NCBI RefSeq assembly: GCF_000175935.2
Contig: NC_014840.1
Coordinates: 248,001-312,000, forward strand
Reading direction: 5' to 3'
DNA length: 64,000 bases
Source: Pantoea sp. At-9b
GTDB taxonomy: Bacteria > Pseudomonadota > Gammaproteobacteria > Enterobacterales > Enterobacteriaceae
In this document: positions 16,968-55,604 of the stretch, in pieces
Position numbering within the stretch: the stretch's first letter is position 1
Layout: each line of letters starts with the position of its first letter
Notes under the pieces: model-generated
The model's database searches: none
The model's input: the letters and a program-made list of their open reading frames with translations, nothing else
What the model was told of the DNA's origin: nothing
Position numbers and translations under genes: made by a program

Positions 16968-17226
16968 TGCTCCGTTGCTTATCGACAAAGGTCCGGGAAG
17001 CCTGTCATGCGTACCTGTGCTATACCGGATTATCAACCCTGATTGACATTTTCCTTCTCCTTCGGAGAGGGAAAATGGGGTCAAGATCTTCAGATTAATC
17101 CATATTCAATTTTTTTGAATTATATCAGCAAATCCCTCAGCTTTTCCTCGCCGCCCGACAGGTCTATTCTCTCTCACATCGAGGCACAACGCCTCACCGA
17201 CTAAACAAACTTCTGAGGAAATGACC

Positions 17227-17436
17227 ATGAAATCTATCAAAACTTTCGTTGCAGTTGCGGCCCTGTCACTGGTTTCTTTCGGCAGCTTTGCCCAGAGCAT
17301 TACCGCTTCCGCTTCAACCCTGGACGGCGCAGAAGCCAAAATCGCCGCGCAGGCAAAACAGGCAGGTGCTTCCTACAAAATCACCGGCGCACGCGTAGAC
17401 AACGGTGCTTACCTGTCAGCGGAACTGACTAAATAA
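17227..17436 (+). CDS. DUF1471 (YhcN/BhsA-type) periplasmic peptide, gene 1 copy A
   Basis: A 69-residue precursor with a clean signal peptide (MKSIKTFVAVAALSLVSFG, cleavage after SFA-Q) and one DUF1471 domain covering the mature part: ASTLDGAEAKIAAQA, then ASYKITGARVDNGAYLSAELTK. Family members (BhsA, McbA, YhcN, YdgH) are periplasmic or outer-membrane-linked stress and biofilm proteins. I prefer ATG 17227 to ATG 17221 because GAGG lies 8 bases before it. The leader contains CCTCAG (17135-17140) complementary to the ribosome site CTGAGG (17213-17218), so translation may be structure-controlled. Confidence 0.88.
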   Translation: MKSIKTFVAVAALSLVSFGSFAQSITASASTLDGAEAKIAAQAKQAGASYKITGARVDNGAYLSAELTK

Positions 17437-17437
17437 G

Positions 17438-17508
17438 GTAATAATTAGCAAGATCACAGTTATCGCACTAATTATCAATAATGAAACGATAACTGTAGTT
17501 ATTATTAC
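17438..17508 (+). promoter_or_regulatory. Intercistronic stem-loop between the DUF1471 genes (copy A)
   Basis: ACAGTTATCG (17456-17465) pairs perfectly with CGATAACTGT (17487-17496), and the flanks GTAATAA (17438-17444) and TTATTAC (17502-17508) extend the stem. It starts at the stop codon of gene 1. The arms are conserved in copy B (28383-28453). It may stabilise gene 1 mRNA or mark a processing site so that the two peptides are made at different levels. Confidence 0.55.
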
Positions 17509-17559
17509 TTTCATCGAAGGCGCACAGCCTTCCAACCAGACAAATTAAGGATTAAGACC

Positions 17560-17775
17560 ATGAAAACTATCAAAGCACTGTCAATCGCCGCTGTAGCCGC
17601 TCTTTCCCTGATGTCAGCAGCCAGCTTCGCGCAGAGCATCTCTGTGACCTCTTCAACGCTGGACGGTGCGGAAGCGAAAATCGCTGCACAGGCAGCTCAG
17701 CAGGGTGCACAGTACAAAATCACTGAAGCGAACACCAATAACCGTGTTCACATGACCGCAGAACTGTACAAATAA
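17560..17775 (+). CDS. DUF1471 periplasmic peptide, gene 2 copy A
   Basis: A 71-residue precursor: signal peptide MKTIKALSIAAVAALSLM to about SFA-Q, then a DUF1471 domain (STLDGAEAKIAAQAAQQGAQYKITEANTNNRVHMTAELYK). It shares the central DGAEAKIAAQA with gene 1 but has a different leader and tail. AAGGATTAAGACC precedes the ATG, and a GAAGGC/GCCTTC hairpin lies 30 bases before that. It is followed by a terminator. Probably a periplasmic stress-response peptide; the pairing with gene 1 suggests related or heteromeric roles. Confidence 0.88.
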   Translation: MKTIKALSIAAVAALSLMSAASFAQSISVTSSTLDGAEAKIAAQAAQQGAQYKITEANTNNRVHMTAELYK

Positions 17776-17802
17776 CGGATAGTCGTACAGTGAAGTGCCG
17801 GG

Positions 17803-17835
17803 AAAGGTCGCCATAGAGCGGCCTTTCTTGTTTTT
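17803..17835 (+). terminator. Terminator of DUF1471 cassette A
   Basis: AAAGGTCGC and GCGGCCTTT form a 9-bp stem with one G-T pair and a 6-base loop, followed by CTTGTTTTT. Confidence 0.7.
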
Positions 17836-27968: not shown

Positions 27969-28171
27969 CGCGTAGTGATCACTCCCCTCTCCGTATCCCT
28001 GTTCAGAGAGGGGGAAACTTTTCTGCTCCCTTCTGTCGCATAATATTCATTCAATATTTTTGAACTCTATCAGCAAAACCCTCAGCTTTTCCTCACCGCT
28101 CGACAGGTCTATTCTCTCTCACATCGAGGCACAACGCCTCACCGACTAAACAAACTTCTGAGGAAATGACC

Positions 28172-28381
28172 ATGAAATCTATCAAAACTTTCGTTGCAGT
28201 TGCGGCCCTGTCACTGGTTTCTTTCGGCAGCTTTGCCCAGAGCATTACCGCTTCCGCTTCAACCCTGGACGGTGCAGAAGCCAAAATCGCCGCGCAGGCA
28301 AAACAGGCAGGTGCTTCCTACAAAATCACCGGCGCACGCGTAGACAACGGAGCTTACCTGTCAGCGGAACTGACTAAATAA
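28172..28381 (+). CDS. DUF1471 periplasmic peptide, gene 1 copy B
   Basis: A 69-residue precursor identical in protein sequence to gene 1 of copy A; only silent base changes are seen (for example GGC to GGT in the LDGAE codons). It has the same signal peptide, DUF1471 domain, preferred ATG 8 bases after GAGG, and the leader pair CCTCAG / CTGAGG that can hide the ribosome site. Perfect protein conservation with silent changes argues for selection or gene conversion, not a fresh duplication. Confidence 0.88.
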   Translation: MKSIKTFVAVAALSLVSFGSFAQSITASASTLDGAEAKIAAQAKQAGASYKITGARVDNGAYLSAELTK

Positions 28382-28382
28382 G

Positions 28383-28453
28383 GTAATAATTAGCAAGATC
28401 ACAGTTATCGCACTAATTATCAATTATGAAACGATAACTGTAGTTATTATTAC
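28383..28453 (+). promoter_or_regulatory. Intercistronic stem-loop between the DUF1471 genes (copy B)
   Basis: Same 10-bp ACAGTTATCG / CGATAACTGT stem and outer GTAATAA / TTATTAC arms as in copy A. The only change noticed, A to T, lies in the loop, which supports a structural role for the stem. Confidence 0.55.
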
Positions 28454-28504
28454 TTTCATCGAAGGCGCACAGCCTTCCAACCAGACAAATTAAGGATTAA
28501 GACC

Positions 28505-28720
28505 ATGAAAACTATCAAAGCACTGTCAATCGCCGCTGTAGCCGCTCTTTCCCTGATGTCAGCAGCCAGCTTCGCGCAAAGCATCTCTGTGACCTCTTCA
28601 ACGCTGGACGGTGCAGAAGCGAAAATCGCTGCACAGGCAGCCCAGCAGGGTGCACAGTACAAAATTACCGAAGCGAACACCAATAACCGTGTTCACATGA
28701 CCGCAGAACTGTACAAATAA
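28505..28720 (+). CDS. DUF1471 periplasmic peptide, gene 2 copy B
   Basis: A 71-residue precursor with the same protein sequence as gene 2 of copy A. Silent changes include GCT to GCC in the AAQQ codons, a variant shared with copy C. Same ribosome site AAGGATTAAGACC. It is followed by the strong GGTCGCC-GCAA-GGCGGCC terminator. The iron-linked TonB operon begins 400 bases downstream. Confidence 0.88.
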   Translation: MKTIKALSIAAVAALSLMSAASFAQSISVTSSTLDGAEAKIAAQAAQQGAQYKITEANTNNRVHMTAELYK

Positions 28721-28750
28721 CGGATGGTCGTACAGGGACGTGCCGGAAGA

Positions 28751-28774
28751 GGTCGCCGCAAGGCGGCCTTTTTC
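28751..28774 (+). terminator. Terminator of DUF1471 cassette B
   Basis: GGTCGCC-GCAA-GGCGGCC with one G-T pair, followed by TTTTTC. Confidence 0.8.
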
Positions 28775-29014
28775 GTGTTGCCTGTACGGCAGTGATGAAT
28801 TTTCCCACCATCAACCTTGCCTACCCACTACTCGATCCTCGTTCAGTTTTCTCGCGGCCACCACTTACCAGGGCTGAATACCGGTGAGATCCGTCGCTAC
28901 CCTGCCTGTGCAATGAGGGCGGGTATCCGCTCAGGTTTTGAAGCCGCAGTCCTCGCTCATGGCGCATACGCGAACCCCCGCAAATCGTAAGGATCAGAGA
29001 TTTTTTACGCTTTA

Positions 29015-29052
29015 TTGATAATGAAATTGTAAATCACTCTCATTATTGTTAG
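29015..29052. promoter_or_regulatory. Overlapping Fur-box-like sites
   Basis: GATAATGAAATTGTAAATC at 29017-29035 matches 13 of 19 positions of the classic Fur box, including the first eight. A second, overlapping 19-mer ending CTCATTATT matches 12 of 19. They lie about 90-110 bases before the TonB gene, where an iron-repressed promoter is expected. Scores were counted by eye. Confidence 0.5.
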
Positions 29053-29127
29053 TGTTCGTATCAAATTCTTACAACTCTTATCTGACATAACAGATCCTGG
29101 ATACAGGTCACGGGTTTTGACAGTCAT

Positions 29128-30036
29128 GTGCCAGTAAAACTCGCCAGAGGCAGATATTGGGCAGTGCATTTAGGGGCAGGGAAGGTTTTGCTGACATCTG
29201 ATTATTCTGTGAAGTCGTCAGGTACGGCTGGGTTTTTGACTCAGTCGCCTTGGTTCTCGCATCGCAAAGCCCTCTCAGTTTGTTCCTCGGTTGCGGCACA
29301 TCTCTTGCTTTTGGTGTTACTGGCGAGCTTCCGTAACGCACCCTTGCCGATAAAGAACGAGGCGGGTCATGCCGGTAATCAAATCTCCGTCGTAAATTTG
29401 AATCAGGCGATGTTGCCGGTTGTTGAGCCGCAGCCTTCTTTACCAGAACCGCAGGTGACGTTGCCCAAAACCGTTGTCGTCAGCAAGGCAGAGATTGTCG
29501 TTGAAAGGCAAAAGCCCGCCACGCAACATCCGCCGGTAAAAAAAGCCATGACGACAGAAAACCAACCTGTCAGGCCGCGCCCGGTGGTGAAACCCGTGTT
29601 ACAGCCAGTAACCACGGATATGCAACGGCAAGCGGAACCCGCACCACAGAAAGCAATATCTGAGTCGACGACCGCCACGGTTACCTCTGGCAGTGGTGGC
29701 GATGCCGCACCGGGTGGTGAAAGCACCTCCGGCCATGCCGCGAAGGGGGCTGGCAATGCAACTACGTCCAGGGTTCGGGTGCTGAACCGTCGGGTCAATT
29801 ATCCTGCCCGCGCTCGCTCAATGGGCGTAGAAGGCCGGGTGAAGGTGCAGTTCGATATCAGTGCGTCTGGAACAATAAAAAATATTCAAATTCTTGCTGA
29901 AGATCCTGCGGGTGTATTTAGCGGCGATCTGCGGCGGGATATTACACGCTGGCGCTATGACATTACTGGTGAAGTTAAAAACCAGATTGTTACCGTTATT
30001 TATAAGTTAGATGGGCGTATTCAGGTCATAAACTGA
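29128..30036 (+). CDS. Energy transducer TonB, FusB-like
   Basis: A TonB-family protein of up to 302 residues. One membrane anchor (VCSSVAAHLLLLVLLASF, about residues 51-68) is followed by a proline/lysine/glutamate-rich periplasmic spacer and a C-terminal TonB domain: NYPARARSMGVEGRVKVQFDISASGTIKNIQIL through TVIYKLDGRIQVIN. It couples the proton-motive force to an outer-membrane receptor. The start is uncertain: GTG 29128 gives an unusually long cytoplasmic N terminus of about 50 residues, and no later ATG fits. A dedicated TonB directly before its receptor gene (20 bases) is a feature of the Fus system. Confidence 0.82.
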   Translation: MPVKLARGRYWAVHLGAGKVLLTSDYSVKSSGTAGFLTQSPWFSHRKALSVCSSVAAHLLLLVLLASFRNAPLPIKNEAGHAGNQISVVNLNQAMLPVVEPQPSLPEPQVTLPKTVVVSKAEIVVERQKPATQHPPVKKAMTTENQPVRPRPVVKPVLQPVTTDMQRQAEPAPQKAISESTTATVTSGSGGDAAPGGESTSGHAAKGAGNATTSRVRVLNRRVNYPARARSMGVEGRVKVQFDISASGTIKNIQILAEDPAGVFSGDLRRDITRWRYDITGEVKNQIVTVIYKLDGRIQVIN

Positions 30037-30056
30037 GTTTCACTTCTGGGAAAATC

Positions 30057-32627
30057 ATGAAAATAGCAGGTTGTATTATTATACCGCTTAGCATGTTTGC
30101 TATGCCATCGGTAGCGGAAACGCATGCCGCAATTCAGGACGTAAATACCACCACCGAAGAATCTGGCACTGAACAGCCGGAGGATTCCGGTGATACCATT
30201 ATTGTTCGCTCTGCGCCAACCAGCCAGACCATGGGCACGCAGGTGATTAACGCCGAACAAATCGCGCGTTATCCGACCGGTAATGGCACCATTACCGAAT
30301 TGCTGAAACACAATCCAAATGTGCGTTTTGCAAACAATACCGACTCCAGCAATAACCCGGGTGAGATTGCGCCGGAGAATGTCTCGTTTCACGGTGAGAA
30401 GTTTTATAACAACAACTTTATGATTGACGGTCTGTCGAACAATAATACTGTCAATCCGGGCAGTAATAATGGTGATTTGACCGCTGATCCCGATGGTTAC
30501 AGCCCGACAGACCTCCCCGCAGGGGGTACGCAGTCGTTCTGGATAAACTCTGAACTGCTTGACAAGCTAGAAGTTTTTGACAGCAATGTCTCTGCAAAAT
30601 ATGGTGATTTCACTGGTGGCGTAGTTGATGCACGTCTGAAAGACCCCTCCCTTGATCGTGCTTCCGGCAGAGTTTCATGGCGTACTACGCGTGACAGCTG
30701 GACGAAATATCATATTGATGAATCAAAGCGTGAAAGTTTTGAAGAGGCGACTGACCTGTCAAATCAACCAAGATTCACTAAAAATTTCTACTCGGTCAGT
30801 GTTAACCAACCTTTAAATGACAGTGCGGGTCTCATCTTCTCGTATAACAGGCAGGAATCGAAGATCCCTTTTTATAACCCCAATATGAATATGTGGACCA
30901 ATCAGGAACGCATTGCCGAAACTTATTTATTGAAGGGAACATGGTTTGCGGAAAATGGGGATATTTTCCGACTGACCGGTATGTACGCGCCACATGAATC
31001 GACTTATTACAAAAAGGAGATGATGAATGGCGGTTTTACCAATAAGGGTGGCGGCTATAGGGCAAATATTGAATGGGAACATTTCGCTCCTTGGGGCAAA
31101 GTGACCAGCCTTGCAGGCTATCAATACGAGCAAAACAAGATCGAGCATGCAGCAGATTCTTACCAGTTATGGTATCGCTACAATACGAGTCGGAACTTCA
31201 CGTCGGATGCAATCACCTGGGGAAGCACCGCTGCTGGCTCTAATGCGCAGTACGGTTACATCGGCGGATACGGTACGTTTGGTACCGACAAGTCCACCAC
31301 CACATTAAAGCAGGACGCAGAATTTAATCCTTTCTCTGCATGGGGCATCACCCATCAACTGGACGCGGGCTGGCAGACAGACTTTTATCAGGCGCGGTAT
31401 CGCCGATTCAGTGATGTTTCCACCAGTACCGGCACCCCGACCATTGACACCAGCGTTGTTTGTACATCTGGAGATGTCTACTGCATTGACGGTGAGCAGT
31501 ATATTAAAAACCGCAGGGTGTATCCGGCACGCAGTGTTGAGGGTAACTACACCAATTACGCCCTCTACCTCCAGGACAGCATGCTTTATAAGCGTCTTGA
31601 AATCACGCCGGGAGTTCGTCTCCAGTACGATGATTTTATGAAGAACCTGACGTTAGCTCCCCGTTTTGCTACATCGCTGGATGTCTTCGGTGACCGTTCA
31701 ACACGTCTGTTTGGCGGTGCCAACCGCTACTACGGGCAGAACCTGCTGGCCTACAAATTGCGTTCGGGGATTAGCGAGTACATTGCTCAGACACGTACCA
31801 GCGCGAACAGTGCCTGGGTCGGAGATACGTCCAAATACAATTCATACGATTACGATATCTCCGATTTGAAAACCCCTTACAGCGATGAACTGTCTCTGGG
31901 GCTGTCCCAGCGAGTGATGGACACCGTCTGGACCCTCAAATGGGTTAACCGTAAAGGCCGCGACCAGTTCGGCCGGGACAGCTACACCGACTCAAGTGGG
32001 CAGAAATATTACATCCTGAACAATAACGCGAAAACGGAAGGGAATACCTGGTCGCTGACAGCGCAACCTATCAGCCCGTATCACTTTAGTGTGGCAGATA
32101 TCAGTTGGGAACTGGGGGCCAGCATCGTCAGGAATAAGTCCAGCTCACAGACGTATTACGATCAGTCGGACAGTGATGACAATATGGTCATCATTGATGG
32201 GAAGTTGATGGAAAAAGGAGACATGAAGGCGCTCGATTACAACACGCCTTGGACCGCCTTTATCAATGTGAATACCTTCTTCCCGGCGATCAATCTGAAC
32301 TGGAGCCAAAACATCGGTTACACCGCGGGGTACACCGGTTATACCACCTCGTCTATTGCCTGCCCTTCGGGTAACAGTGCCTGCGGCAGTTATGAAGGCA
32401 ATGCCAGCCTGTACCAGAAAACCAAATATGACGACTACTTCACCTATGACTGGCGCTTCGCCTGGTCGCAGCCCACTTTCCAGAATCAATCTGTAGAGCT
32501 GACGCTGGACGTGTTGAATGTGTTTGATACCGCTATCGAAGCCAGTCAGACCACCGGCAGCTCTGCCAAAACCGTGACCTACAAAACCGGACGGCAGTTC
32601 TGGTTTGGTGTCGCTTATAACTGGTAA
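30057..32627 (+). CDS. TonB-dependent outer-membrane receptor, FusA/YddB-like
   Basis: An 856-residue outer-membrane receptor. A signal peptide (about 1-20, SVA-ET) is followed by a TonB-box-like DTIIVRSAP near residue 46, a plug domain with ITELLKHNPNVRFAN and FHGEKFYNNNFMIDGLSNNN, and a 22-strand barrel ending in aromatic W. The plug motifs (LEVFDSNVSAKYGDFTGGVVDARLKDP) and the genes around it match the YddB/FusA group. In Pectobacterium FusA imports ferredoxin as an iron source; E. coli YddB partners PqqL. Here import of an iron protein or peptide is likely by context. The start has CTGGGAAAATC upstream. Confidence 0.85.
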   Translation: MKIAGCIIIPLSMFAMPSVAETHAAIQDVNTTTEESGTEQPEDSGDTIIVRSAPTSQTMGTQVINAEQIARYPTGNGTITELLKHNPNVRFANNTDSSNNPGEIAPENVSFHGEKFYNNNFMIDGLSNNNTVNPGSNNGDLTADPDGYSPTDLPAGGTQSFWINSELLDKLEVFDSNVSAKYGDFTGGVVDARLKDPSLDRASGRVSWRTTRDSWTKYHIDESKRESFEEATDLSNQPRFTKNFYSVSVNQPLNDSAGLIFSYNRQESKIPFYNPNMNMWTNQERIAETYLLKGTWFAENGDIFRLTGMYAPHESTYYKKEMMNGGFTNKGGGYRANIEWEHFAPWGKVTSLAGYQYEQNKIEHAADSYQLWYRYNTSRNFTSDAITWGSTAAGSNAQYGYIGGYGTFGTDKSTTTLKQDAEFNPFSAWGITHQLDAGWQTDFYQARYRRFSDVSTSTGTPTIDTSVVCTSGDVYCIDGEQYIKNRRVYPARSVEGNYTNYALYLQDSMLYKRLEITPGVRLQYDDFMKNLTLAPRFATSLDVFGDRSTRLFGGANRYYGQNLLAYKLRSGISEYIAQTRTSANSAWVGDTSKYNSYDYDISDLKTPYSDELSLGLSQRVMDTVWTLKWVNRKGRDQFGRDSYTDSSGQKYYILNNNAKTEGNTWSLTAQPISPYHFSVADISWELGASIVRNKSSSQTYYDQSDSDDNMVIIDGKLMEKGDMKALDYNTPWTAFINVNTFFPAINLNWSQNIGYTAGYTGYTTSSIACPSGNSACGSYEGNASLYQKTKYDDYFTYDWRFAWSQPTFQNQSVELTLDVLNVFDTAIEASQTTGSSAKTVTYKTGRQFWFGVAYNW

Positions 32628-32639
32628 CCCTCCACGTTG

Positions 32640-32684
32640 CCTCCGGCGGAATGCCGGAGGATTTGTGCTGCGCGCTTGCAGCAC
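32640..32684 (+). promoter_or_regulatory. Two GC-rich hairpins between receptor and protease genes
   Basis: CCTCCGGC-GGAAT-GCCGGAGG (32640-32660) and GTGCTGC-GCGCTT-GCAGCAC (32665-32684) are perfect 8- and 7-bp stems. Neither is followed by a T-run. They lie between the receptor stop and the protease ribosome site and may set differential mRNA stability, leaving more receptor than protease message. Confidence 0.5.
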
Positions 32685-32705
32685 CCGATCTTATAAGGAA
32701 GAAAC

Positions 32706-35477
32706 ATGTGTAAACGCAGACGTTTTGCCGGGGTTACACTCTTGCTGCTGGCCTTATCTCAGCCAGCATTGGGTGAAGAAGTGAAAACAACGCTGCCGGT
32801 TGTAACAGAAGGCGTATTGGCTAATGGGCTTCAATACACCCTGGCACCGATCAAATCCGATGCCGGACGCATTGATGTCCGACTGAGCGTGGAGGCCGGA
32901 TCGCTTGATGAAACCAACGATCAGTCAGGTGTGGCGCATATGGTTGAGCATATGGTGTTTCGCGCCAGCGACGCCTGGCCGGAGGGGGTGTCGACGGCGC
33001 TTGCGCAGCAGGGGTGGTCGCGCGGTGCAAATTATAATGCGGTAACCAATTACGAACGCACCCAGTTCATGATGAGCCCGCCTGATGGGGTAAAAGGGTT
33101 AGGTTTAGCCTTACAGGCACTGGCGCAGATGACGGCGCATGCACGTATTACTCAACCTGATCTGGATGATGAACGCAAAGTCATCCTCGAAGAGTGGCGG
33201 GGAAAGCTGGGTGTTGCAGCCCGGATGAACCAGCAGCGCATTGCGGCCCTGCGTGAGGGTTCCCGCTATCCTGACCGACCGACCATCGGGCAAGTTGCAT
33301 CCATTGAGCATACCCCGGCAACCACGCTGCAAGCGTTTTATCAGCGCTGGTATCACCCGGCCAATATGCGTCTCCTGATCATCGGTGATTTCGAGCCAGA
33401 GAAAGTGAAAGCGCTGATTACCCAAAATTTTGCCGGATTACCAGCCATCACTGTTCCGTTGCGGCAGGACAGCGATTACAACCAGCAACTGAAAAAGCAG
33501 CTGCGGGTGATCCATCTGCAGGATTCGGAAAGCGGCGGCAGTCAGGTTTCGTGGGTAAACCGCTTTGATGAAAAACAGATGCAGGGCACCGCAGGTTATC
33601 GGGATCGGTTGATCAACCAAATCACCCTCAGCGTGCTTACCCGTCAGCTCAAACGTCAGCAAAATGCCCTGCCAGACTCGATTGGCAACATCGTCGCGCG
33701 GAAATCTGAAACCGGCCGCTCTACCGTGGCGTTTGGACTGTTTGTTGATGTGATGCCGGGTGACTATAAGTTGGGCCTGGAAACGCTGATCCGTGAGCGC
33801 GAACGGCTGATACGTTTTGGTCTGGATGCAGACGAAGTTGCAGATGTGAAAAGTGATTTATTGGATGCGGCAACGCGTTTGGCGGGCAAACCGGAAAACC
33901 GGACGTTCACTGACTGGGTCCAGACGCTGGCGATTGCCTGGCAGCAACAACAGCCATACGTCGACTCTCAGCAGCGTGGTGTCCGTGCGCTGGCTGAGCT
34001 CAAGACCATCACCAGCGCGGATATTAACGCACGTCTGAAAAAGTGGTTACAGGCACCGGATCAAGTGGTGCAGTTCAGCGTTCCCGGACGGGTTGTCTAC
34101 AGTGTGCCATTGCCTTCCGAGATTCAGCGGATGGTCACGCAAATTTCCACTGAGTCATTAACGCCTACAGTGATGGTAAAGACATCTGCTTTGGCACCCT
34201 TGCCGGATCACGATACTTCGGGTAAACGCACCTCCGTGAAAAATTACCCGGCAGAATCAGTGCAGGAGTGGCAGCTCAGTAACGGCGATCGTGTGGTCTG
34301 GATGAAAACAGCACCGGCAAAAGGCCGTCTGTGGTTCGAAGCGCAGAGTAATGCTGGCTATCTTGGTTATGGGCTGAGTGCCTGGCAGGCGCAATTAGCG
34401 ACTCAATTGTTGAGGTATGGTGCCCCGACGGGTTGGAACGAAGATGACTATCGACGCTGGAAGCAGGACAAGGATCTTTCGCTGAGTGTCAGTCAGCAGG
34501 AGTACAACCTGGAGATCCTCGGAAATGCGCCTGCCAGTGAGCTCAATACACTCCTGCATGCTTATCAATTGCTGCACACTGATAATCATATCGATCCTGC
34601 TTCAATCAAAAACAGCATCCTGACGTTTGCTCGCCAACAGGTCATGCAGGACAGCTCTCTTTCTTCTCAACGTCAGAAAGAAGTGACCAATCTGCGTTAC
34701 GGCAGAGCGTCGTTCGCGATGCCGGATGAAGCCCAGCTTTCGACTCTCAGCGCTGCAACGCTGGCTGAACAGTGGAAAAAAATCAGCGCTGCGCCTGTGA
34801 CCTTCTTTGTGATGGCCGACCTGCCTGAAAATACGCTCCGGGAGGCGGTTGAACGCTATCTGGCAGGTATTAAACGTGGCGTTCCCTTACCCGCCGCACC
34901 GTATGTCGCGTTGCCTGGGCATCGTGAAAAAGTCAGTCAGCTAAACAGTGAACCGAAAGCTGATGTGACGTTATGGAGCTACAGCGATGAAGTCTGGTCG
35001 CCGGAACGCGCAGTACAGGTCAGCATCGCCGAAAATCTGGTTACCCGGCATCTTAAAAAGGTACTGCGCGATGACGCCCGGGGTATCTATAACCTGAGAT
35101 TTAGCACGGTGCTTAATGACAGAACTAACAGGATTGAAACCGAACTACGGTTCAGCACCTCTCCTGAGCGTGCCAGGGAGTTGGCGTTACTCGCCCGGCA
35201 GGCATTTGAACATGCTCAGAGCCAGATCAATGATCGCACCGTGAAAGAGATGAAAGCTTCATTCCGACGTTCACAAGCCTTATGGCAAACCTACGACTTT
35301 ATGACTCAGCGCCGGCTGATACTCAGCTACCGCCATTTCAATAATCCAGGTTATCTCTCCCGCGTTTCATCACTGGATAACGCCATTACCACTGACGGCG
35401 TTCGTGCGATGGCATCGCGTATCTACAACCCGAAAAATCTGGTGATTTACACGGTTCTGCCGCAAGAGAAGAAATAA
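32706..35477 (+). CDS. M16 (insulinase) metalloprotease, PqqL/FusC-like
   Basis: A 923-residue periplasmic zinc protease. A signal peptide (1-24, LG-EE) precedes four M16 domains in tandem. The first carries the inverted zinc motif H-x-x-E-H in AHMVEHMVF (near residue 80) and the distal glutamate in DDERKVILEEW (near 155). The third and fourth domains lack the motif, as usual for this family. PqqL and FusC have this size; FusC cleaves imported ferredoxin in the periplasm to free its iron-sulfur cluster. AAGGA supports the ATG. The stop codon overlaps the next start (TAATG), so it is coupled to the ABC gene. Confidence 0.87.
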   Translation: MCKRRRFAGVTLLLLALSQPALGEEVKTTLPVVTEGVLANGLQYTLAPIKSDAGRIDVRLSVEAGSLDETNDQSGVAHMVEHMVFRASDAWPEGVSTALAQQGWSRGANYNAVTNYERTQFMMSPPDGVKGLGLALQALAQMTAHARITQPDLDDERKVILEEWRGKLGVAARMNQQRIAALREGSRYPDRPTIGQVASIEHTPATTLQAFYQRWYHPANMRLLIIGDFEPEKVKALITQNFAGLPAITVPLRQDSDYNQQLKKQLRVIHLQDSESGGSQVSWVNRFDEKQMQGTAGYRDRLINQITLSVLTRQLKRQQNALPDSIGNIVARKSETGRSTVAFGLFVDVMPGDYKLGLETLIRERERLIRFGLDADEVADVKSDLLDAATRLAGKPENRTFTDWVQTLAIAWQQQQPYVDSQQRGVRALAELKTITSADINARLKKWLQAPDQVVQFSVPGRVVYSVPLPSEIQRMVTQISTESLTPTVMVKTSALAPLPDHDTSGKRTSVKNYPAESVQEWQLSNGDRVVWMKTAPAKGRLWFEAQSNAGYLGYGLSAWQAQLATQLLRYGAPTGWNEDDYRRWKQDKDLSLSVSQQEYNLEILGNAPASELNTLLHAYQLLHTDNHIDPASIKNSILTFARQQVMQDSSLSSQRQKEVTNLRYGRASFAMPDEAQLSTLSAATLAEQWKKISAAPVTFFVMADLPENTLREAVERYLAGIKRGVPLPAAPYVALPGHREKVSQLNSEPKADVTLWSYSDEVWSPERAVQVSIAENLVTRHLKKVLRDDARGIYNLRFSTVLNDRTNRIETELRFSTSPERARELALLARQAFEHAQSQINDRTVKEMKASFRRSQALWQTYDFMTQRRLILSYRHFNNPGYLSRVSSLDNAITTDGVRAMASRIYNPKNLVIYTVLPQEKK

Positions 35478-37147
35478 TGAATAAGAAACTGGCCACGGTG
35501 TGGCAACTGAGCCGGGCGTTCTGGGGCGGCAAGCAGAGCTGGAGTGCGTGGTTAATTCTGGCGGTGATCCTGGGTCTGGGGGGATCGATCGTCTGGCTGA
35601 ACGTATTGATCAACGACTGGAGCAAATCCTTCTATGACGCGTTAGGAGAGTTTAATGGCTCAAAGGTCTACAGCCTGGTGAAGGAGTATTGTGTCTTCAT
35701 CCTGATCTATATCGGCGTGTTCGTTTATCAGGACTGGTTTACCCGGCTGCTGATTATTCGCTGGCGTAAATCGCTGACGGCTCAGCTGGTGGACAGCTGG
35801 CTGGCGAAACAGGCTTACTATCATCTGTCCCTCACCGGAAAGGTTGATAACCCGGATCAGCGTATTGCCGAAGACATCAACTTCTTTGTCGATAAGACTA
35901 TCAGCCTGCTGGTGTCGTTCCTGATCACCAGCGCTCAGTTGTTCTCGTTTGTCTGGATTCTGTGGAAGCTGTCGGGCGTTCAGACCTTCACCCTGTTTGG
36001 ACAGGAGTGGGTGATTAAAGGCTACCTGGTCTGGGTCGCGGTGCTTTACACCCTGGTGGGCAGTCTGGTGACGCACCTGATAGGTAAGAAGTTGCATGGG
36101 CTAAACTATCAGAAACAACGGGCCGAAGCTGACTTCCGCGCAGCCTTGTTACGTAAGCACGATAACGCTGAGCAGATCGCGCTGTATCAGGGGGAATCCT
36201 GGGAGAAACAGCATCTGAATCGTGCCTTTAGCGCTATCGCACAAAACTGGCGCGCATTGATGAACGGCGAACGTAACCTGGGCTTCTTCACTACCGGTTA
36301 CACCCGGATCAGCCTGATTGTACCGGTGTTTGCTGCGCTGCCATTGTTTATGGCGAAAACGATCACCCTCGGTGGTCTGATGCAGGTGCGTTCTGCCTTT
36401 GGTCAGGTTCATGGCGCTTTGAGCTGGTTTATTCGTGTTTACAAAGCGCTGGTGGAGCTGTCGGCCAGTATCTCGCGTCTGGAGCAGTTCTGCCAGGCGA
36501 TCGCGGCATGTCAGAACGGCAAGAATGCCAATCCGGCTGGCGAAATCGTCGAGGTTGATAAACTGACGGTAACCACTCCGCAAGGGAAGGCGTTGCTGTC
36601 AGATATGCAATTCCGTTTTCCCGTCGGAAGCTGGAGCAAACTTTCTGGTCGCAGCGGTATCGGCAAATCAACCTTGCTGAGAACGCTGGTCGGTGTCTGG
36701 CCCTGGTTTGAAGGCCATTGGCAGAGCCAGCAGGGCAAAAGCCTTTTGCTTCCCCAGAGGGCTTATATCGGACAGGGTACATTGCGTGAGGTGCTGTGCT
36801 ATCCGCAGCAGCCTGACCCTGATTCGGAGAAACTGGCCCGCTATCTGGCAGATACTGGCCTTGGGGAGTGGAGTGGGGCGCTTGATAAGCAACTTAACTG
36901 GGAACAGGTTTTGTCAGGCGGTCAGAAACAGAGGCTGGCATTTGCCCGGGCATTGCGACTGAAACCAGACGTACTGTGGCTGGATGAAGCGACCAGCAGC
37001 CTGGATGCTCAGTCGGCGCGTGAGATGTTGCTACTGCTGAAAACCCGGCTGCCAGATTGTACAGTCATTGCAATAACACACCAGACCGATATCGACGGAC
37101 ACTTTGGTCAGCATCTCAATCTTGATAGCGTAGCGGCAGGGAAATAG
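35477..37147 (+). CDS. ABC transporter permease/ATPase fusion, YddA/FusD-like
   Basis: A 556-residue half-transporter. An N-terminal membrane domain of the SbmA/BacA type (about 1-330, four to six helices) is fused to an ATPase domain with Walker A GRSGIGKSTLL near residue 396, signature LSGGQKQRLAFARAL near 475 and Walker B VLWLDEATSSLD near 500. The SbmA-like region with VQTFTLFGQEWVIKGYLVWVAVLYT marks it as the YddA/FusD group. In Fus systems it is proposed to move protease products across the inner membrane. Last gene of the operon; an imperfect hairpin follows at 37162-37195. Confidence 0.87.
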   Translation: MNKKLATVWQLSRAFWGGKQSWSAWLILAVILGLGGSIVWLNVLINDWSKSFYDALGEFNGSKVYSLVKEYCVFILIYIGVFVYQDWFTRLLIIRWRKSLTAQLVDSWLAKQAYYHLSLTGKVDNPDQRIAEDINFFVDKTISLLVSFLITSAQLFSFVWILWKLSGVQTFTLFGQEWVIKGYLVWVAVLYTLVGSLVTHLIGKKLHGLNYQKQRAEADFRAALLRKHDNAEQIALYQGESWEKQHLNRAFSAIAQNWRALMNGERNLGFFTTGYTRISLIVPVFAALPLFMAKTITLGGLMQVRSAFGQVHGALSWFIRVYKALVELSASISRLEQFCQAIAACQNGKNANPAGEIVEVDKLTVTTPQGKALLSDMQFRFPVGSWSKLSGRSGIGKSTLLRTLVGVWPWFEGHWQSQQGKSLLLPQRAYIGQGTLREVLCYPQQPDPDSEKLARYLADTGLGEWSGALDKQLNWEQVLSGGQKQRLAFARALRLKPDVLWLDEATSSLDAQSAREMLLLLKTRLPDCTVIAITHQTDIDGHFGQHLNLDSVAAGK

Positions 37148-37520
37148 CACTGCGTCACCGCCAGGTGGAGTGGATTAAAACATGCTCCGCCTGGTTCGCT
37201 ACCAGAAATACCAGCGCCATTCAGCAGCCTTATACGGTGGTTATACGTTTTTACTGGGTTATTCAAAAGGGTCAGGCTGCGTTAAGCCTGTGAGTTATTG
37301 AAGCAGAGTCGTGTTTGTCAGCGAAAAGATGGCACGCCATACTCAGTGCCCTCTTTGAAAGGGAACTTATGTTGTCACTGTTCACAGCTTAACATTTATT
37401 CAGTTTTTTTGAACTCTATCAGCAAAACCCTCAGCTTTTCCTCAGCGCTCGACAGGTCTATTCTCTCTCACATCGAGGCACAACGCCTCACCGACTAAAC
37501 AAACTTCTGAGGAAATGACC

Positions 37521-37730
37521 ATGAAATCTATCAAAACTTTCGTTGCAGTTGCGGCCCTGTCACTGGTTTCTTTCGGCAGCTTTGCGCAGAGCATAACCGC
37601 TTCCGCTTCAACCCTGGACGGCGCAGAAGCCAAAATCGCCGCGCAGGCAGCCCAGCAGGGTGCACAGTACAAAATCACCGAAGCGAACACCAATAACCGT
37701 GTTCACATGACCGCAGAACTGTACAAATAA
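37521..37730 (+). CDS. Hybrid DUF1471 periplasmic peptide (gene 1 / gene 2 fusion)
   Basis: A 69-residue precursor. Residues 1-42 are those of gene 1 (MKSIKTFVAVAALSLVSFG to EAKIAAQ) and residues 43-69 those of gene 2 (AAQQGAQYKITEANTNN to AELYK). The junction lies in the CAGGCA shared by both genes at the base level. The frame and the domain length are kept, so the product is probably functional, with the expression signals of gene 1 and the surface of gene 2. It keeps the leader CCTCAG/CTGAGG pairing. A clear case of unequal crossing-over between tandem paralogues. Confidence 0.88.
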   Translation: MKSIKTFVAVAALSLVSFGSFAQSITASASTLDGAEAKIAAQAAQQGAQYKITEANTNNRVHMTAELYK

Positions 37731-37760
37731 CGGATGGTCGTACAGGGAAGTGCCGGAAAA

Positions 37761-37784
37761 GGTCGCCGCAAGGCGGCCTTTTTC
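37761..37784 (+). terminator. Terminator of DUF1471 cassette C
   Basis: GGTCGCC-GCAA-GGCGGCC followed by TTTTTC, as in copy B. Confidence 0.8.
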
Positions 37785-37857
37785 GTATTCACAGCGACTG
37801 TCTACGGGAACAGGAACACTCCACTGCCATTTTCGAGCATTAATCGCTTATGGATTT

Positions 37858-40179: not shown

Positions 40180-43100
40180 CTAAAACCCGATATTCACGCG
40201 CACCATAATCATCTGTGAACGTGTTTGCTGCTCATCCAGCCCGAGCGTGCCCTGGTAGGCGATGCCTGGCGTGATATCGTGCGGCAGCAGAAAATCAAGG
40301 CCAACACCCAAAGCCAACGTCTGCGTGCTCTGTTGATAGAGCGACATGCTCCAGGTATCGTTGCCCACATCGGCATAGCCGACACGTGCTTTGCCGTTGT
40401 CATTCATCAGCTGCGAATACTCAAGGCGGCTCTGGAGTTTCACAAAGCCCCAACTGGTCGGTACGCTGTGTTCGCCGCGCAGACCGGCGGTCGTCACAAC
40501 TTGAGCAAACGTTTGAGGTGCGAAAGCCAGGTTGAATAGCCCGGCATCGGATTCGGCATAGCCATCCAGCCAGGTACGGTAGTACTGAATGCGTGCGTAA
40601 GGTGAAATGAGGCTGCTGACCGTGCGGAACTCATAACCTGAGGTTAGCGAACTGAACACCTGGCGACCTGAACGGCTGCCACGTGCAAAAGCATCCGATT
40701 CACTCACATAACGTTTGCTGTCGAACTCAAGACTGCTATAGCCCAGCAGCCCATCAATGAAGAACGCATCCGGGTGCCAGCTGCCATAAAGGGCGGAGCT
40801 GATTGACCGTCCGTTTTCCCGTGAACCGGCGTCACCAACGTCACTCACGTCGCGGCCAAAACCAATCCCCATCCCCGCAGTAAATGAGGGGGTGAATCGA
40901 TAATCGCTACCGGTGGTGATACCCACCAGGGTATGGCTGAAACGCACCGCATCGTCTTTATCACTGCCAAAATCGATATAACCGCCGGTCCACCAGGACA
41001 GGCGATTGTCCTCGTTGCGCGCGGTGAATGGGTTTACCGGAGATTGCGGTTGTGGGTGCTCTTCCTGATATTTACGCTGCTGCTGCCAGGCACTGGCCCA
41101 CAGGTCTTTATCTGTTTCGCGTTCAGAGCGACTGGTGGGCATATTGAAATGGATGCCATTGTGACCGGAAGGGAGACTGACACCGCTGTGCAGTTGTTCC
41201 AGCCGGTCATTAAAGTTGCGTATCTGTGCTTTAGCAAAGTTCTGCGCTGCCTGTACCTGTGCGCTGATCAGACCAATCACATCGGCATCGGTAGCAGGGT
41301 TGGGTCTCGCAGCAATGGTCAGCGTCACGGTCGCTGGCTGGGTCGTTCCTGTGGAGCTGGTCAGTTCATAGCGCAGTGCAACGGTGCCGCTCGCCTGGGC
41401 TGCGGCGGTAAACAGTAACTGATACGTTGCCCCCGAAGACTGGATAGTCGCTGAACCGAGGCTGCTTTGTGGTTGATCGAGCAAACGCGCACCCGTGAAA
41501 GGCCCGCCTGTTGCACCCTCGACAAGATTTACCTTCACTGACTGCCCGGCATATAACGAGGCACTGTGATCAGCAGCCACAGGTGCCGCGGCGTTAATGG
41601 TCAGCGTATAGGCTGACTGCACGCTAGCGGCGTTTGCATCCGTTGCGATGAGGGTAAAGGGGGCCGTGCCTGCAGCGGTTGGGGTACCTTTCAGTTCGCC
41701 ATTCGCAAAAGTCAGTCCCTGAGGTAATGAACCGTTTAGTTGCCAGCTGTATGGAGTGGTTCCGCCCGAAACGCTGAAGGTCTGACGGTAGGCGGTTCCC
41801 ACCGTCGCTGTTGGCAATGTACCGCTGGCAGGTGACATTGTCAGGCTGGTGGCCGTCACCGTCAGCGATACCGTCGCTTCCTGGGAGGTTCCCCAGGCGT
41901 TGGTTGCACTGTAGGTAAAATTGTCGCTACCGGAATAACCACTCACCGGGGTGTAACGGATGCTGGTGCCAGAAACCAGCGCCGTACCGTGACTGGCCTG
42001 ACGGACAATCTTCAGGCTGGTGACGGCACCGGCGATTGCCAGGGTGATGCTGTTGTCGTTACTGCCTGAATCCACTGTTGCCGTGACGTCGTTTGCAACC
42101 GGCGCAGTGCTGCCTGCGGTGACATTCAGCGTGTAGTTAACCGTGCTGCTGGCACTGTTACTGTCTGTTGCTGTGACCTGGATGCTGAAGCTGCCGGTCT
42201 GAGTCGGCGTGCCAGAGATAACCCCGGTACTGCTGTTCAGTGTTAATCCTGTTGGCAATCCCGTCGCGCTCCAGCTGTAGGGGGCGGTGCCGCCCGTGGC
42301 CGTTAATGTCTGAGACCATGCGCTGTCTGTTGTGGCAGCGGGAAGAGCACCGGCCGCAGGGGAGAACGTAAATGTGGGTGCCGTGACAGTCAAGTCAACG
42401 GTGGCATTCGCGGAAGTCCCCGCGCTGTTGGTCGCATTCCAGCTGAAACTGTCGCTGCCCGAATATCCTGCTGTTGGTGTGTAGGTAATGCTGGTGCCCG
42501 AAGCCGTGGCTGTGCCATGTGCGGGTGCCGAGGCGACCGAAACAGAGCTTGCCGTGCCGCCACTGGTGGAGAGGCTTATCACGTTATCTGAGCTGTTAGC
42601 CGCGACATTGGCGGTACTGTTGTTTGCCACCACAGCAGCTTCCGCGCGCGTGACATTCAGCGTATAGGATTTGGTTGTGGCGTCTTCAGCCGTAACCACG
42701 ATGGCAATGGCAGTTGAGGCCCCTGCCGTCAGGCTAATTGCAGGGGAAGCTGAACCTGAAGTCACAGTGGTGCCATTCACCGTGACCGTTGCATTGGCAT
42801 CGGTGGTGGTCGGGGTAACGGTGATGGTGGATACGCTGTTGGCTACCGATGCGCTATAGCTGGTGGTGCCGGCACTGAAGGAGGGAGAAAGTGTACCATC
42901 CGAAAGTGACAGGCTGCTTAATGTTGCATCGCTGGAGGGGATTGCTGCCGTACCGTTGCAGGTAACAGCAAAATTGCTTAATTGACCATATGATGAGGTC
43001 AGCCTGAGACGAACACCATCGGTTGAGAGCGTACCCACTGTATAACTCAACGTCACGGTATGCGCAGAGTTGCTGGTTGACTGTGAAGCCGAGTAGACCT

Positions 43101-43395
43101 GGAAAACGGTTTCCTCGTAATCAGTCAGACCAAAACCATCGAAGAATAATTCGTCGCTGTCATATGCGCTGCCGCTATCGGTGACTGAGACTGTGAGTGT
43201 ATCGCCAGCATCAAACGCTGATGCAGGATAAGCATTGGTGTTGAAATTCAGTGACGTCGAACCGGAAAGCGCATTCAGAGCGATACAGCCGCTGGAAAGC
43301 GCAAAAGCAGAGGAGAGCGTGGACAGGAACAGGATGAGAAAAGCAAATACACCCCCAACCGCCCGCTGCAGTATGTAAAAGTAACGCATCATCAT
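40180..43395 (-). CDS. Autotransporter with Ig-like and cadherin-like repeats
   Basis: A 1071-residue type Va secreted protein. A signal peptide (about 1-33, SAFA-LS) precedes an N-terminal beta domain, a cadherin-like sandwich (near 155-250, ATLSSLSLSDGTLSPSFSAG), alternating cadherin/Big-type modules (YTPTAGYSGSDSFSWNATN, YTPVSGYSGSDNFTYSATN) and putative-Ig modules with SGTPTQTGSF and KGTPTAAGTAPF. A helical linker with FAKAQIRNFNDRLEQLHSG (near 715) leads to a beta-barrel from about 800 that ends in NIGF. It should be displayed or released outside the cell, perhaps as an adhesin. Three ATG codons at 43395, 43392 and 43389 are all possible starts (AGGG upstream). Confidence 0.87.
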   Translation of the reverse strand: MMMRYFYILQRAVGGVFAFLILFLSTLSSAFALSSGCIALNALSGSTSLNFNTNAYPASAFDAGDTLTVSVTDSGSAYDSDELFFDGFGLTDYEETVFQVYSASQSTSNSAHTVTLSYTVGTLSTDGVRLRLTSSYGQLSNFAVTCNGTAAIPSSDATLSSLSLSDGTLSPSFSAGTTSYSASVANSVSTITVTPTTTDANATVTVNGTTVTSGSASPAISLTAGASTAIAIVVTAEDATTKSYTLNVTRAEAAVVANNSTANVAANSSDNVISLSTSGGTASSVSVASAPAHGTATASGTSITYTPTAGYSGSDSFSWNATNSAGTSANATVDLTVTAPTFTFSPAAGALPAATTDSAWSQTLTATGGTAPYSWSATGLPTGLTLNSSTGVISGTPTQTGSFSIQVTATDSNSASSTVNYTLNVTAGSTAPVANDVTATVDSGSNDNSITLAIAGAVTSLKIVRQASHGTALVSGTSIRYTPVSGYSGSDNFTYSATNAWGTSQEATVSLTVTATSLTMSPASGTLPTATVGTAYRQTFSVSGGTTPYSWQLNGSLPQGLTFANGELKGTPTAAGTAPFTLIATDANAASVQSAYTLTINAAAPVAADHSASLYAGQSVKVNLVEGATGGPFTGARLLDQPQSSLGSATIQSSGATYQLLFTAAAQASGTVALRYELTSSTGTTQPATVTLTIAARPNPATDADVIGLISAQVQAAQNFAKAQIRNFNDRLEQLHSGVSLPSGHNGIHFNMPTSRSERETDKDLWASAWQQQRKYQEEHPQPQSPVNPFTARNEDNRLSWWTGGYIDFGSDKDDAVRFSHTLVGITTGSDYRFTPSFTAGMGIGFGRDVSDVGDAGSRENGRSISSALYGSWHPDAFFIDGLLGYSSLEFDSKRYVSESDAFARGSRSGRQVFSSLTSGYEFRTVSSLISPYARIQYYRTWLDGYAESDAGLFNLAFAPQTFAQVVTTAGLRGEHSVPTSWGFVKLQSRLEYSQLMNDNGKARVGYADVGNDTWSMSLYQQSTQTLALGVGLDFLLPHDITPGIAYQGTLGLDEQQTRSQMIMVRVNIGF

Positions 43396-51786: not shown

Positions 51787-52332
51787 ATGGACAGAATGAC
51801 TGCTATTGAACGCTTTAACGCCTTCGATAAGAAAGGGCGTTATGTCTTCACTACTCGTGATCTGGCCAAAATTTTCCATGAAGACAGTCCTAAGACATTG
51901 AATGCAGGACTGAATCGTCTGGTTAAGGATGGCATCCTTTCTCGAGCCATTCGTGGTGTATATGTTTACGCCCATGCCAGAAGTAAAGATGCCTACACAC
52001 TTGAGCGCATTGTTCTGGCACTGCGCCGGGGAGAGTATAACTATCTCAGCCTCGAATCAGCGTTATCAGCGTATGGTGTCATCTCCCAAATCCCCATTGG
52101 CCGCATCACGGTGATGACAACCGGACGCTCAGAAGAACATAAAACCCCTTTCGGGGTGATTGAGTTCACCCATACTAAACGTTCTCCTGAACAGATTTTA
52201 CGGGATACTTATATGGGGGACTCGCCGCTGCGGCAGGCGACGATGGCAGCTGCAGCAAGGGATTTGCGCCGTGTCGGGCGTAACACGCATCTGATCGATG
52301 AATCGGAGTTGAACCGTGAATCAGAAAGTTAA
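51787..52332 (+). CDS. AbiEi antitoxin, type IV toxin-antitoxin system
   Basis: A 181-residue protein: an N-terminal winged helix (MTAIERFNAFDKKGRYVFTTRDLAKIF, then LNAGLNRLVKDGILSRAIRGVYVY, residues 4-56) and a C-terminal antitoxin domain (LSLESALSAYGVISQIPIGRITVMTTGRSEEHKTPFG). AbiEi represses its own operon and counteracts AbiEii without direct contact. The ATG lies 11 bases after the second inverted repeat. The gene overlaps abiEii by 17 bases. Confidence 0.88.
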   Translation: MDRMTAIERFNAFDKKGRYVFTTRDLAKIFHEDSPKTLNAGLNRLVKDGILSRAIRGVYVYAHARSKDAYTLERIVLALRRGEYNYLSLESALSAYGVISQIPIGRITVMTTGRSEEHKTPFGVIEFTHTKRSPEQILRDTYMGDSPLRQATMAAAARDLRRVGRNTHLIDESELNRESES

Positions 52333-53233
52333 TTTTGCCGTACTGGTCAGTCAGGCGATGGAGTCCGCTGAGCTTGAAGGTCTACGGAGCGTGGTGGAAA
52401 AAGAACTTTTGCACTACGACATTCTCTACTGCCTGGATAATGCCGGTTTATTACAGGATCTGACTTTCCAGGGAGGGACCTCATTAAGGCTCTGTTATGG
52501 TGGTAACCGATTCAGTGAGGATCTGGATTTTGCGGGTGGAACTGAGTTTTCCGGTTCACATCTCAAGAACATGAAAACCTGCATTGAAGATTATCTGGGA
52601 ACGCGTTACGGATTAGAGGTCAGCGTAAAAGAGCCAAATGAGTTACGGCGGGAGCCGGGCTATGAGGATATTCGTATTGATAAATGGCAGGTATCCGTCA
52701 CCACCTCCCCTGAAAGGCGTGATATGCCAAAGCAGCGTATCAAGATTGAGATTGCAAATATTCCCGCCTACACGAGAGTGCCGATGGGACTATCACGTAA
52801 CTATACGGTTCTACCTGATGGCTATGCTGACACGCTTGTGATGTGTGAAACGCTTGATGAAGTGATGAGTGACAAACTCATTTCCCTGGTCGCCACAACA
52901 AAATATGTCCGCTATCGCGATATCTGGGATCTGCCGTGGTTACTCCAGCAGAACGCGGCCTATGATATTGAACTGATTCGCAGGAAAATTCAGGACTATC
53001 GGATCCCAAACTACAGGGAACTTTTAAAGCTTCGCCTGGAGAGCATTGACCAGACGGTCAGCGATGGACGGTTTGAAGCAGAAATGCGGCGTTTTTTACC
53101 GCAGACAGTTTTTGACAGAACGCTGGGGCGTGCTGAATTTACCGGTTATCTAAGTAACAGGCTCAAAACTCTGTTAAGTTCCTTACAAAAGGAGCTGGAA
53201 GGGGAGGGAAGAGGGAATCCATTTCTGATGTGA
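52316..53233 (+). CDS. AbiEii nucleotidyltransferase toxin
   Basis: A 305-residue protein of the AbiEii/AbiGii nucleotidyltransferase family. The catalytic block LTFQGGTSLRLCYGGNRFSE-DLDFAGG (residues 49-75) has the GGTSL motif and the D-L-D metal pair of polymerase-beta-like enzymes. Downstream motifs are KIEIANIPAY (third acidic strand), LDEVMSDKLISLVAT and RYRDIWDLPWLL, all typical. AbiEii transfers nucleotides to cellular RNA and acts bacteriostatically; AbiE systems limit some phages and stabilise elements. A GTG start overlaps abiEi by 17 bases, so the two are translationally coupled. Confidence 0.88.
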   Translation: MNQKVNFAVLVSQAMESAELEGLRSVVEKELLHYDILYCLDNAGLLQDLTFQGGTSLRLCYGGNRFSEDLDFAGGTEFSGSHLKNMKTCIEDYLGTRYGLEVSVKEPNELRREPGYEDIRIDKWQVSVTTSPERRDMPKQRIKIEIANIPAYTRVPMGLSRNYTVLPDGYADTLVMCETLDEVMSDKLISLVATTKYVRYRDIWDLPWLLQQNAAYDIELIRRKIQDYRIPNYRELLKLRLESIDQTVSDGRFEAEMRRFLPQTVFDRTLGRAEFTGYLSNRLKTLLSSLQKELEGEGRGNPFLM

Positions 53234-53556: not shown

Positions 53557-54063
53557 TCACGAATTATCAAAGCACACTTGCCTTTCACAACACTCATCAC
53601 AACTTGGTGAACGACAAATTAATTCACCCTGTGCATGCAAACAACGCTGGCGGTAGAAAAACTTTTTCCAGCGCATGTTTTTATCATTCATCACTACCAG
53701 CTCAGGAAAGCAGTCACTCATCAGTTGCCGCAGCTCGGCTCTGGAACTCAGACCCAGATCTTCCCAAAGATGGTTAAAAGCCAGCGAGACGCTGGCAATA
53801 ATACAGTGCATCGGCTCTGCGTCTGGCTGCATATATTCCGCCAGCCATAACGTCAGTTGTTGCTGCTCATCGCTGCGCGTGGCGATCAGTTCACTCATGA
53901 GTTGATGGCGCATCTGCGTATCTGCTGGAATTAACGGTTGCCGGGCTGGTAGTGGCAACTGCACCCACTGATGCGGAGAAAGTCCCATTCTCTTTGGATA
54001 ACTACCGCATCCCTGAAGATAGAGAGATACCAACCGACGTAACCAGTCTTGTTGTGCCGTCAT
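53557..54063 (-). CDS. nifQ: NifQ, molybdenum-sulfur donor for FeMo-cofactor
   Basis: A 168-residue cytoplasmic protein matching Klebsiella NifQ in length and ends. It carries the C-terminal cysteine motif C-x4-C-x2-C-x5-C in CRSPSCDECCERQVCF (near residues 150-165), which binds a Mo-Fe-S cluster. It supplies molybdenum to NifEN/NifH during FeMo-co synthesis. The start overlaps the nifB stop (ATGA), so the pair is translationally coupled. It is the last gene of the cluster at this end. Confidence 0.95.
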   Translation of the reverse strand: MTAQQDWLRRLVSLYLQGCGSYPKRMGLSPHQWVQLPLPARQPLIPADTQMRHQLMSELIATRSDEQQQLTLWLAEYMQPDAEPMHCIIASVSLAFNHLWEDLGLSSRAELRQLMSDCFPELVVMNDKNMRWKKFFYRQRCLHAQGELICRSPSCDECCERQVCFDNS

Positions 54064-55463: not shown

Positions 55464-55499
55464 GGCGTTACCTTGATGATGTAGTCTTAAACTGCCTGC

Positions 55500-55516: not shown

Positions 55517-55604
55517 TTGCCACCTGGTTAATACGATGAAATTAAAGCACTTTATTCAGCGAGCCGCGCCAGGCTTTGTTATATTCGCCACCTGTAGCTG
55601 ACAA

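Follow-up and report, generated by a model that had tools for sequence, protein, structure and literature searches.

A 64,000-base stretch of plasmid DNA from Pantoea sp. At-9b (positions 248001-312000 of contig NC_014840.1), referred to here as the window, most probably carries a complete Fus system for the uptake of ferredoxin, a reading to which we give a probability of roughly 87 % by analogy with the characterised proteins of Pectobacterium. Fus is defined by fusB, fusA, fusC and fusD standing together in one operon (PMC5095587), and the four genes lie on the plus strand at 29128-37147, all open and of full length, with intergenic distances of 20, 78 and -1 bases in the list of open reading frames, an arrangement that we call an operon from the genes alone. 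The original prediction, made from the letters of the window, had described four co-directional, tightly spaced genes for a TonB, a receptor, an M16 protease and an SbmA-type ABC protein and had named them Fus-like. Spacing and families were reproduced, and the identification can be put more strongly, since receptor, protease and TonB side with Fus and FusD is 61-64 % identical to the FusD of Pectobacterium operons.

The four gene products

The strongest evidence comes from the receptor gene fusA (30057-32627, plus strand; 856 residues, Pfam Plug at 29.3 bits), whose product scored 1168 bits against 4zgv, the solved ferredoxin receptor, and 288 bits against Escherichia coli YddB, with no third entry among the PDB sequences at an E value of 1e-3. 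Identities were 60-62 % and 24-26 %, respectively. The fold searches of the predicted receptor gave the same order: 4zgv ranked top, YddB came second by Foldseek (TMq 0.71), and VIA-align aligned 4zgv over 767 residues with a Z of 38.5, while siderophore, colicin and cobalamin receptors reached a Z of at most 36.2, the next few matches spanning 509-541 residues. Identity as a siderophore receptor is ruled out by sequence and fold searches alike. Likewise, the M16 zinc protease encoded by fusC (32706-35477, plus strand; 923 residues, Peptidase_M16 at 62.1 and M16_C at 75.4 bits) scored 954 bits against the solved FusC 6b03 and 176 bits against PqqL.

These scores bear directly on the possibility that the operon belongs to the YddA-YddB-PqqL type and merely resembles Fus. 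The parts lists indeed overlap, as yddA-yddB-pqqL of E. coli also comprises a receptor, an M16 protease and an SbmA-type ABC protein, and YddB has the second-best fold. However, receptor and protease are far closer to Fus, the gene order of yddA-yddB-pqqL differs (PMC5095587), and the window operon has a dedicated FusB, whereas no FusB is named for the E. coli system, whose cargo is given as unknown (PMC5095587, PMC6793856). Membership in the YddB/PqqL group is thus refuted by sequence, and we regard a mere resemblance to Fus as very improbable.

The remaining proteins carry the expected marks. FusB (29128-30036, plus strand; 302 residues from a GTG start codon that is not certain, TonB_C at 47.9 bits), a TonB homologue specific to FusA and ferredoxin, found its best PDB match in the solved FusB 7zc8 (101 bits), the best TonB other than FusB scoring 66 bits. 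Its RRVNYP fits the double-arginine motif RRxxYP, characteristic of FusB (PMC13253070) and present in all 18 FusBs compared; the equivalents of R242 and N244 are kept as well, and K250 is replaced by R. In FusC, the HxxEH noticed by the original prediction is HMVEH at residues 78-82, and the equivalents of the zinc-site residues H80, E83, H84 and E165 are conserved in 21 of 21 FusCs, a set without those of Pectobacterium PL152 and Moraxella. FusD (35477-37147, plus strand; 556 residues), an SbmA-fold ABC transporter fused to its own ATPase domain, matches SbmA_BacA (127.2 bits) and ABC_tran (61.1 bits); its comparison was made without Tatumella, which gave no adjacent match, and Moraxella, where the match is on the opposite strand.

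Proposed cargo recognition and release of the receptor

Each transport and cleavage step proposed for the window system is carried over from the work on Pectobacterium (PMC5095587, PMC6071955, PMC7593965, PMC13253070), where deletions of fusA and fusB led to loss of ferredoxin-dependent growth and import (PMC7593965). Upon iron shortage, Fur would leave an operator upstream of fusB (29017-29047), and FusA would use its plug loop and its long extracellular loops to bind a [2Fe-2S] ferredoxin of the plant type on the outside of the cell. FusB, driven by the proton-motive force through ExbBD, would bind the FusA box (DTIIVRS) and clear the plug, then grip the ferredoxin with its double-arginine motif and pull it into the periplasm. 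There, FusC would open the ferredoxin at its zinc site and free the cluster iron, and FusD would move a product across the inner membrane, in either direction. Ferredoxin is well supported as the probable substrate by this analogy. No support was found for the ferredoxin of rivals, which the original prediction had also named as cargo: in the characterised Fus systems, the cargo consists of plant-type [2Fe-2S] ferredoxins or of bacteriocins with such a domain (PMC5095587, PMC7593965).

Several observations weigh against the uptake of plant-type ferredoxin as outlined, in addition to two from the promoter comparison given below. The model of FusA is middling, with a predicted local distance difference test score (pLDDT) of 70 that falls below 50 in the plug region. 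The FusC pocket residues Y298, M392 and A428 read Y, L and A in the window, and the change from M to L is shared only with two Pantoea relatives, the other 18 of 21 FusCs having M. In FusB, the ferredoxin-interface residues H317 and R319 are replaced by R and Q, and the C-terminal Asp of the R241-D322 switch is missing, as the protein ends in ...IQVIN with Asn at position 322. At the ferredoxin-docking positions given in PMC5095587, with 4zgv as reference, the window FusA is 41 % identical to 4zgv in sequence, compared with 65 % elsewhere in the receptor.

One could conclude that the same machine serves another cargo, the receptor loops having been adapted to some other small iron protein, perhaps one that the strain meets in its habitat, so that plant ferredoxin would be a poor substrate. 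The low docking identity, the changes of H317, R319 and D322 in FusB, and the Leu in place of M392 all point in this direction. However, six other Pectobacterium FusAs and that of Samsonia reach just 44-49 % at the same positions, and the window lies only slightly below this range; divergence of such size is thus normal even in close Fus relatives. Values were 48 % for Erwinia, 33-41 % for the remaining members of the first FusA class, 29 % for Moraxella and 21-23 % for a second FusA class (Pectobacterium carotovorum, brasiliense, fontis and Symbiopectobacterium); the FusA comparisons do not include Klebsiella BIGb0407 and Pectobacterium PL152, whose frames are broken. Furthermore, besides the double-arginine motif, the plug loop (residues 144-162) is kept, being 68 % identical to 4zgv where Pectobacterium receptors range from 58 to 68 %, and so is the FusA box, which reads DTIIVRSA with its Asp in the window and DTILVRST in P. 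carotovorum, where that Asp holds R241 of FusB (PMC13253070). A change of cargo therefore seems unlikely to us, and uptake of ferredoxin is the reading that we prefer.

The missing Asp deserves separate consideration. The R241-D322 switch is a variant found in Pectobacterium and Samsonia and does not define Fus, and the window FusB lacks it. Among the 18 FusBs, position 322 is D in eight (seven Pectobacterium and Samsonia), N in eight, K in Erwinia and S in Siccibacter, a tally that fits the statement that D322 is confined to Pectobacterium and Samsonia and missing in virtually all other FusBs (PMC13253070). In vitro, P. carotovorum FusB with the D322N exchange bound ferredoxin normally, but FusA was no longer displaced by ferredoxin (PMC13253070), so that release in the window system would have to work otherwise or poorly. 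FusBs that naturally occur in the release-blocking state would imply either that the switch as published holds for some systems only or that Asn systems run differently, and they offer a ready test of its generality; in the literature searched, we did not meet the idea that the natural Asn of these genera calls the release switch into question.

Putative upstream control and the fusA-fusC hairpin

Using the Fur consensus 19-mer, we predicted three overlapping sites in steps of 6 bp at 29017, 29023 and 29029, matching 13, 13 and 12 of 19 positions and together forming the putative operator at 29017-29047 on the plus strand. Such a triple occurs only once in the window; dinucleotide shuffling of the 250 bp upstream produced one in 3 of 5000 trials. 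A single site of 13/19 is weak, as 10 of 200 shuffles also attained it; the Fur-box-like sequence of the original prediction is real as an array and weak when scored singly. Single sites of 14-16/19 stand before fusB in Klebsiella indica, Erwinia, Cedecea, Klebsiella BIGb0407, Enterobacter and Siccibacter (at most 1/200 shuffles each), while the best match was 13/19 in the window and its two Pantoea relatives (9-18/200) and in Tatumella (17/200). The eight fus promoters of Pectobacterium and Samsonia, with 11-12/19, did no better than shuffles (66-147/200), so that Fur control is not established as a general property of fus operons; for Moraxella and the second FusA class, where the stretch before fusA was scored, best matches were 10-13/19 (3-126/200). 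By this simple test, Fur control is indicated for the branch of the window, but not for that of Pectobacterium.

Control of the nif type was not borne out. No NifA site (TGT-N10-ACA) occurs in the 500 bases before fusB (28627-29127), with 17 in the window, and the best plus-strand match to a sigma-54 -24/-12 element in the 300 bases before fusB (28828-29127) reached just 7/11. Sites of at least 9/11 number 31 in the window, including one at 29294 inside fusB and one at 29133 on the minus strand. Sigma-70-like sites amounted to 4 in 28800-37700, compared with 7.8 in shuffles, none of them upstream of fusB.

A further candidate element is a terminator-like hairpin between fusA and fusC (32640-32660, plus strand), followed by a second at about 32665-32684. 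The gap folds with a z of -2.8, and 3 of 300 shuffles were as low. The overall outcome of the scan does not speak for it, since terminator-like sites in 28800-37700 (11) are at the level of shuffles (9.0 ± 3.0). The folding energy of the gap was reached by at most 5/300 shuffles in 13 of 17 operons, the window included and the second FusA class aside, although many of these are close kin and do not represent 17 independent cases; K. indica, Tatumella, Siccibacter and one of the Pantoea relatives (G029) showed no exceptional folding, and the count excludes Klebsiella BIGb0407 and Pectobacterium PL152 for their broken frames. In the four operons of the second class, the gap is 11-26 bases long, unstructured and too short for a hairpin. 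None of 16 fusB-fusA gaps taken as control stood out, half of them being only 20-36 bases long and that of the window not among them. Stems and loops vary in sequence between genera while the position is kept, from which we infer that the hairpin may set the receptor above the protease, either as an attenuator or as a protector of RNA ends. It was not met in the literature, in which no search aimed at it was made.

Plasmid, nif genes and the history of the operon

The window is part of a plasmid of 321,080 bases, which is circular, since its nif block spans the contig ends when compared with a relative. The genome comprises 6,312,783 bases in six contigs, the others measuring 4,368,708, 793,953, 394,054 and 318,111 bases among them; the second of these accounts for 12.6 % of the genome, and all contigs but the longest for 30.8 %. 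Five large plasmids making up about 31 % of the genome, the largest of 793.9 kb (12.6 %), have been described for this strain (PMC3505739), which was isolated from fungus gardens of Atta cephalotes and, according to a supplement title, is a nitrogen-fixing symbiont (PMC2944797). The original prediction placed nif genes in the same 64 kb, and we found nifQ (53557-54063, 143 bits) and, at 54060-59549, nifB (641 bits), nifA (717), nifL (257) and a nifF-type flavodoxin gene (225), these four all above cut-off; the flavodoxin gene is on the plus strand and the others of this region (53557-59549) on the minus strand. nifH follows on the same contig about 8 kb past the window end.

Among 61 genomes of the genus, fusA occurs in three (the strain itself, G029 and G456) and nifH in six, which include all three with fusA (p 6e-4 when counted by genome, 0.006 without the strain itself). 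Both genes share one contig in all three, separated by 39 kb in At-9b and by about 151 and 113 kb in the others. The FusAs of G029 and G456 are each 85 % identical to that of the window, and the G456 locus is 97.5 % identical to that of G029, whose contig is colinear with the At-9b plasmid in many blocks (matches of at least 800 bases add up to 141 of 321 kb), with Fus at the matching place. Thus, the association of fus and nif in the genus is one plasmid lineage and not three events. In a family sample of 392 genomes (fusA at E 1e-100; nifH over cut-off, with at most six candidates scored per genome), 23 had fusA, 34 nifH and nine both, where 2.0 were expected (Fisher p 3e-5), a test that ignores kinship, with fus and nif both clustering in plant-associated clades. 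Without the strain itself, 8 of 22 fus genomes had nifH (p 1.5e-4), and 6 of 18 when only the first FusA class was counted (p 0.002); by genus, the count was 5 of 14 (p 0.0025). Close linkage was found in none of the eight other family genomes with both: four pairs are on different contigs of drafts, where closeness is possible, and four are on one contig but more than 1.4 Mb apart, even by the short way round. Conserved linkage as a general rule is therefore not borne out.

The link to nitrogenase drawn by the original prediction stands insofar as both gene sets belong to a single plasmid lineage in the genus; the lack of close linkage elsewhere and of a NifA or good sigma-54 site keeps the flow of ferredoxin iron to nitrogenase an attractive hypothesis. 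A wider picture would be that of a trait package of a plant-biomass symbiont, in which Fus iron from leaf chloroplast ferredoxin in leaf-cutter ant gardens is spent on the nitrogenase of the same plasmid, FusB releasing FusA without the R241-D322 switch. We put this forward tentatively and consider it rather doubtful in its entirety. If true, the presence of a complete Fus in what is probably a symbiont living in leaf-cutter ant gardens would shift this protein piracy, so far studied in crop pathogens, from virulence to symbiosis, and would tie the iron source of a leaf-fed fungus garden to the iron demand of a diazotroph's nitrogenase. FusA occurrence in Dickeya and Pantoea has been stated in print (PMC5095587); neither Fus together with nitrogen fixation nor a fus-nif plasmid was found among the literature matches listed, although the strain may appear in the supplementary tables of PMC6793856.

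Could the operon instead be a decaying plasmid passenger, out of use and close to nif by chance? Its distribution is sporadic (3 of 61 congeners), several relatives are broken (FusA in Klebsiella BIGb0407, both this receptor and FusC in Pectobacterium PL152, and FusA-like fragments on plasmids of Klebsiella pneumoniae), and the repeat search placed it between direct repeats at 28049-28779, a ydgH/BhsA/McbA-like gene by annotation of matching Pantoea plasmids, and 37398-37789, with a third direct copy at 17104-17834. The two flanking copies could recombine the operon out. However, the reading frames are intact along with their catalytic and motif residues, and the operon holds the corresponding position on the diverged G029 plasmid, where the fus DNA is 79.7 % identical and the proteins 76-93 %. 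Disuse is accordingly hard to credit, and a working Fus system is what we continue to assume. The bracket itself is not conserved, since both similar repeat copies of G029 lie on the upstream side.

Trees of FusA, FusC and FusD agree in placing the window with the two Pantoea relatives, followed by K. indica, Enterobacter and Siccibacter. The FusA and FusC of Erwinia rhapontici cluster with those of Cedecea and its FusD falls outside the clade of the window, although Erwinia and Pantoea are both Erwiniaceae, which suggests that the operon was transferred horizontally as a whole. The nearest systems outside Pantoea, those of K. indica, Enterobacter BIGb0383 and Siccibacter colletis, have FusAs 75, 69 and 70 % identical to that of the window and fusB-fusA gaps of 21-23 bases; the first two share its Asn at position 322, and nifH is on another contig than fus in K. 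indica and was not found in the other two. With Fus of Pectobacterium atrosepticum and P. carotovorum, the window shares the B-A-C-D order (in the Pectobacterium loci compared), RRxxYP, the FusA box, the zinc site and the fusA-fusC hairpin, at identities of 62 % for FusA (4zgv), about 50 % for FusC and about 63 % for FusD. It differs in being plasmid-borne and nif-linked, in the Asn of FusB, in the Fur-like triple array, and in a fusC/fusD overlap of 1 base instead of 4. The second FusA class is likewise linked to fusC and fusD, but its FusA is only 44-45 % identical, its box reads DVI(M/L/T)V, it lacks room for a hairpin, and tblastn found no FusB. In the three Pectobacterium of this class, FusC and FusD fall among the sequences of first-class operons, a pattern that would fit an exchange of partners between receptor and protease.

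Some minor observations concern relatives and neighbours. Moraxella lacunata, an eye-associated species, carries a FusA relative 47 % identical to that of the window (9001-11562), followed by a match to an M16 protease. On plasmid II of K. pneumoniae Kp52.145 (6001-6761), fragments resembling FusA, which cover 31 % of the query, lie beside the aerobactin genes iucABC, and similar partial matches occur in 16 Klebsiella plasmids, with intact relatives elsewhere. The fus genes neighbouring the broken frames of Klebsiella BIGb0407 and Pectobacterium PL152 are open, suggesting disuse or assembly errors. In the genome of At-9b, ParB_N had no match whereas control genomes did; Colicin_M matched neither this genome nor the controls, so its absence is not established. 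Within the window, an AbiEii-like nucleotidyltransferase, AbiEii being the toxin of type IV toxin-antitoxin systems, lies beside the nif genes (52316-53233), and a large autotransporter with Ig-like and cadherin-like repeats, likely an adhesin, is encoded near the fus region (40180-43395).
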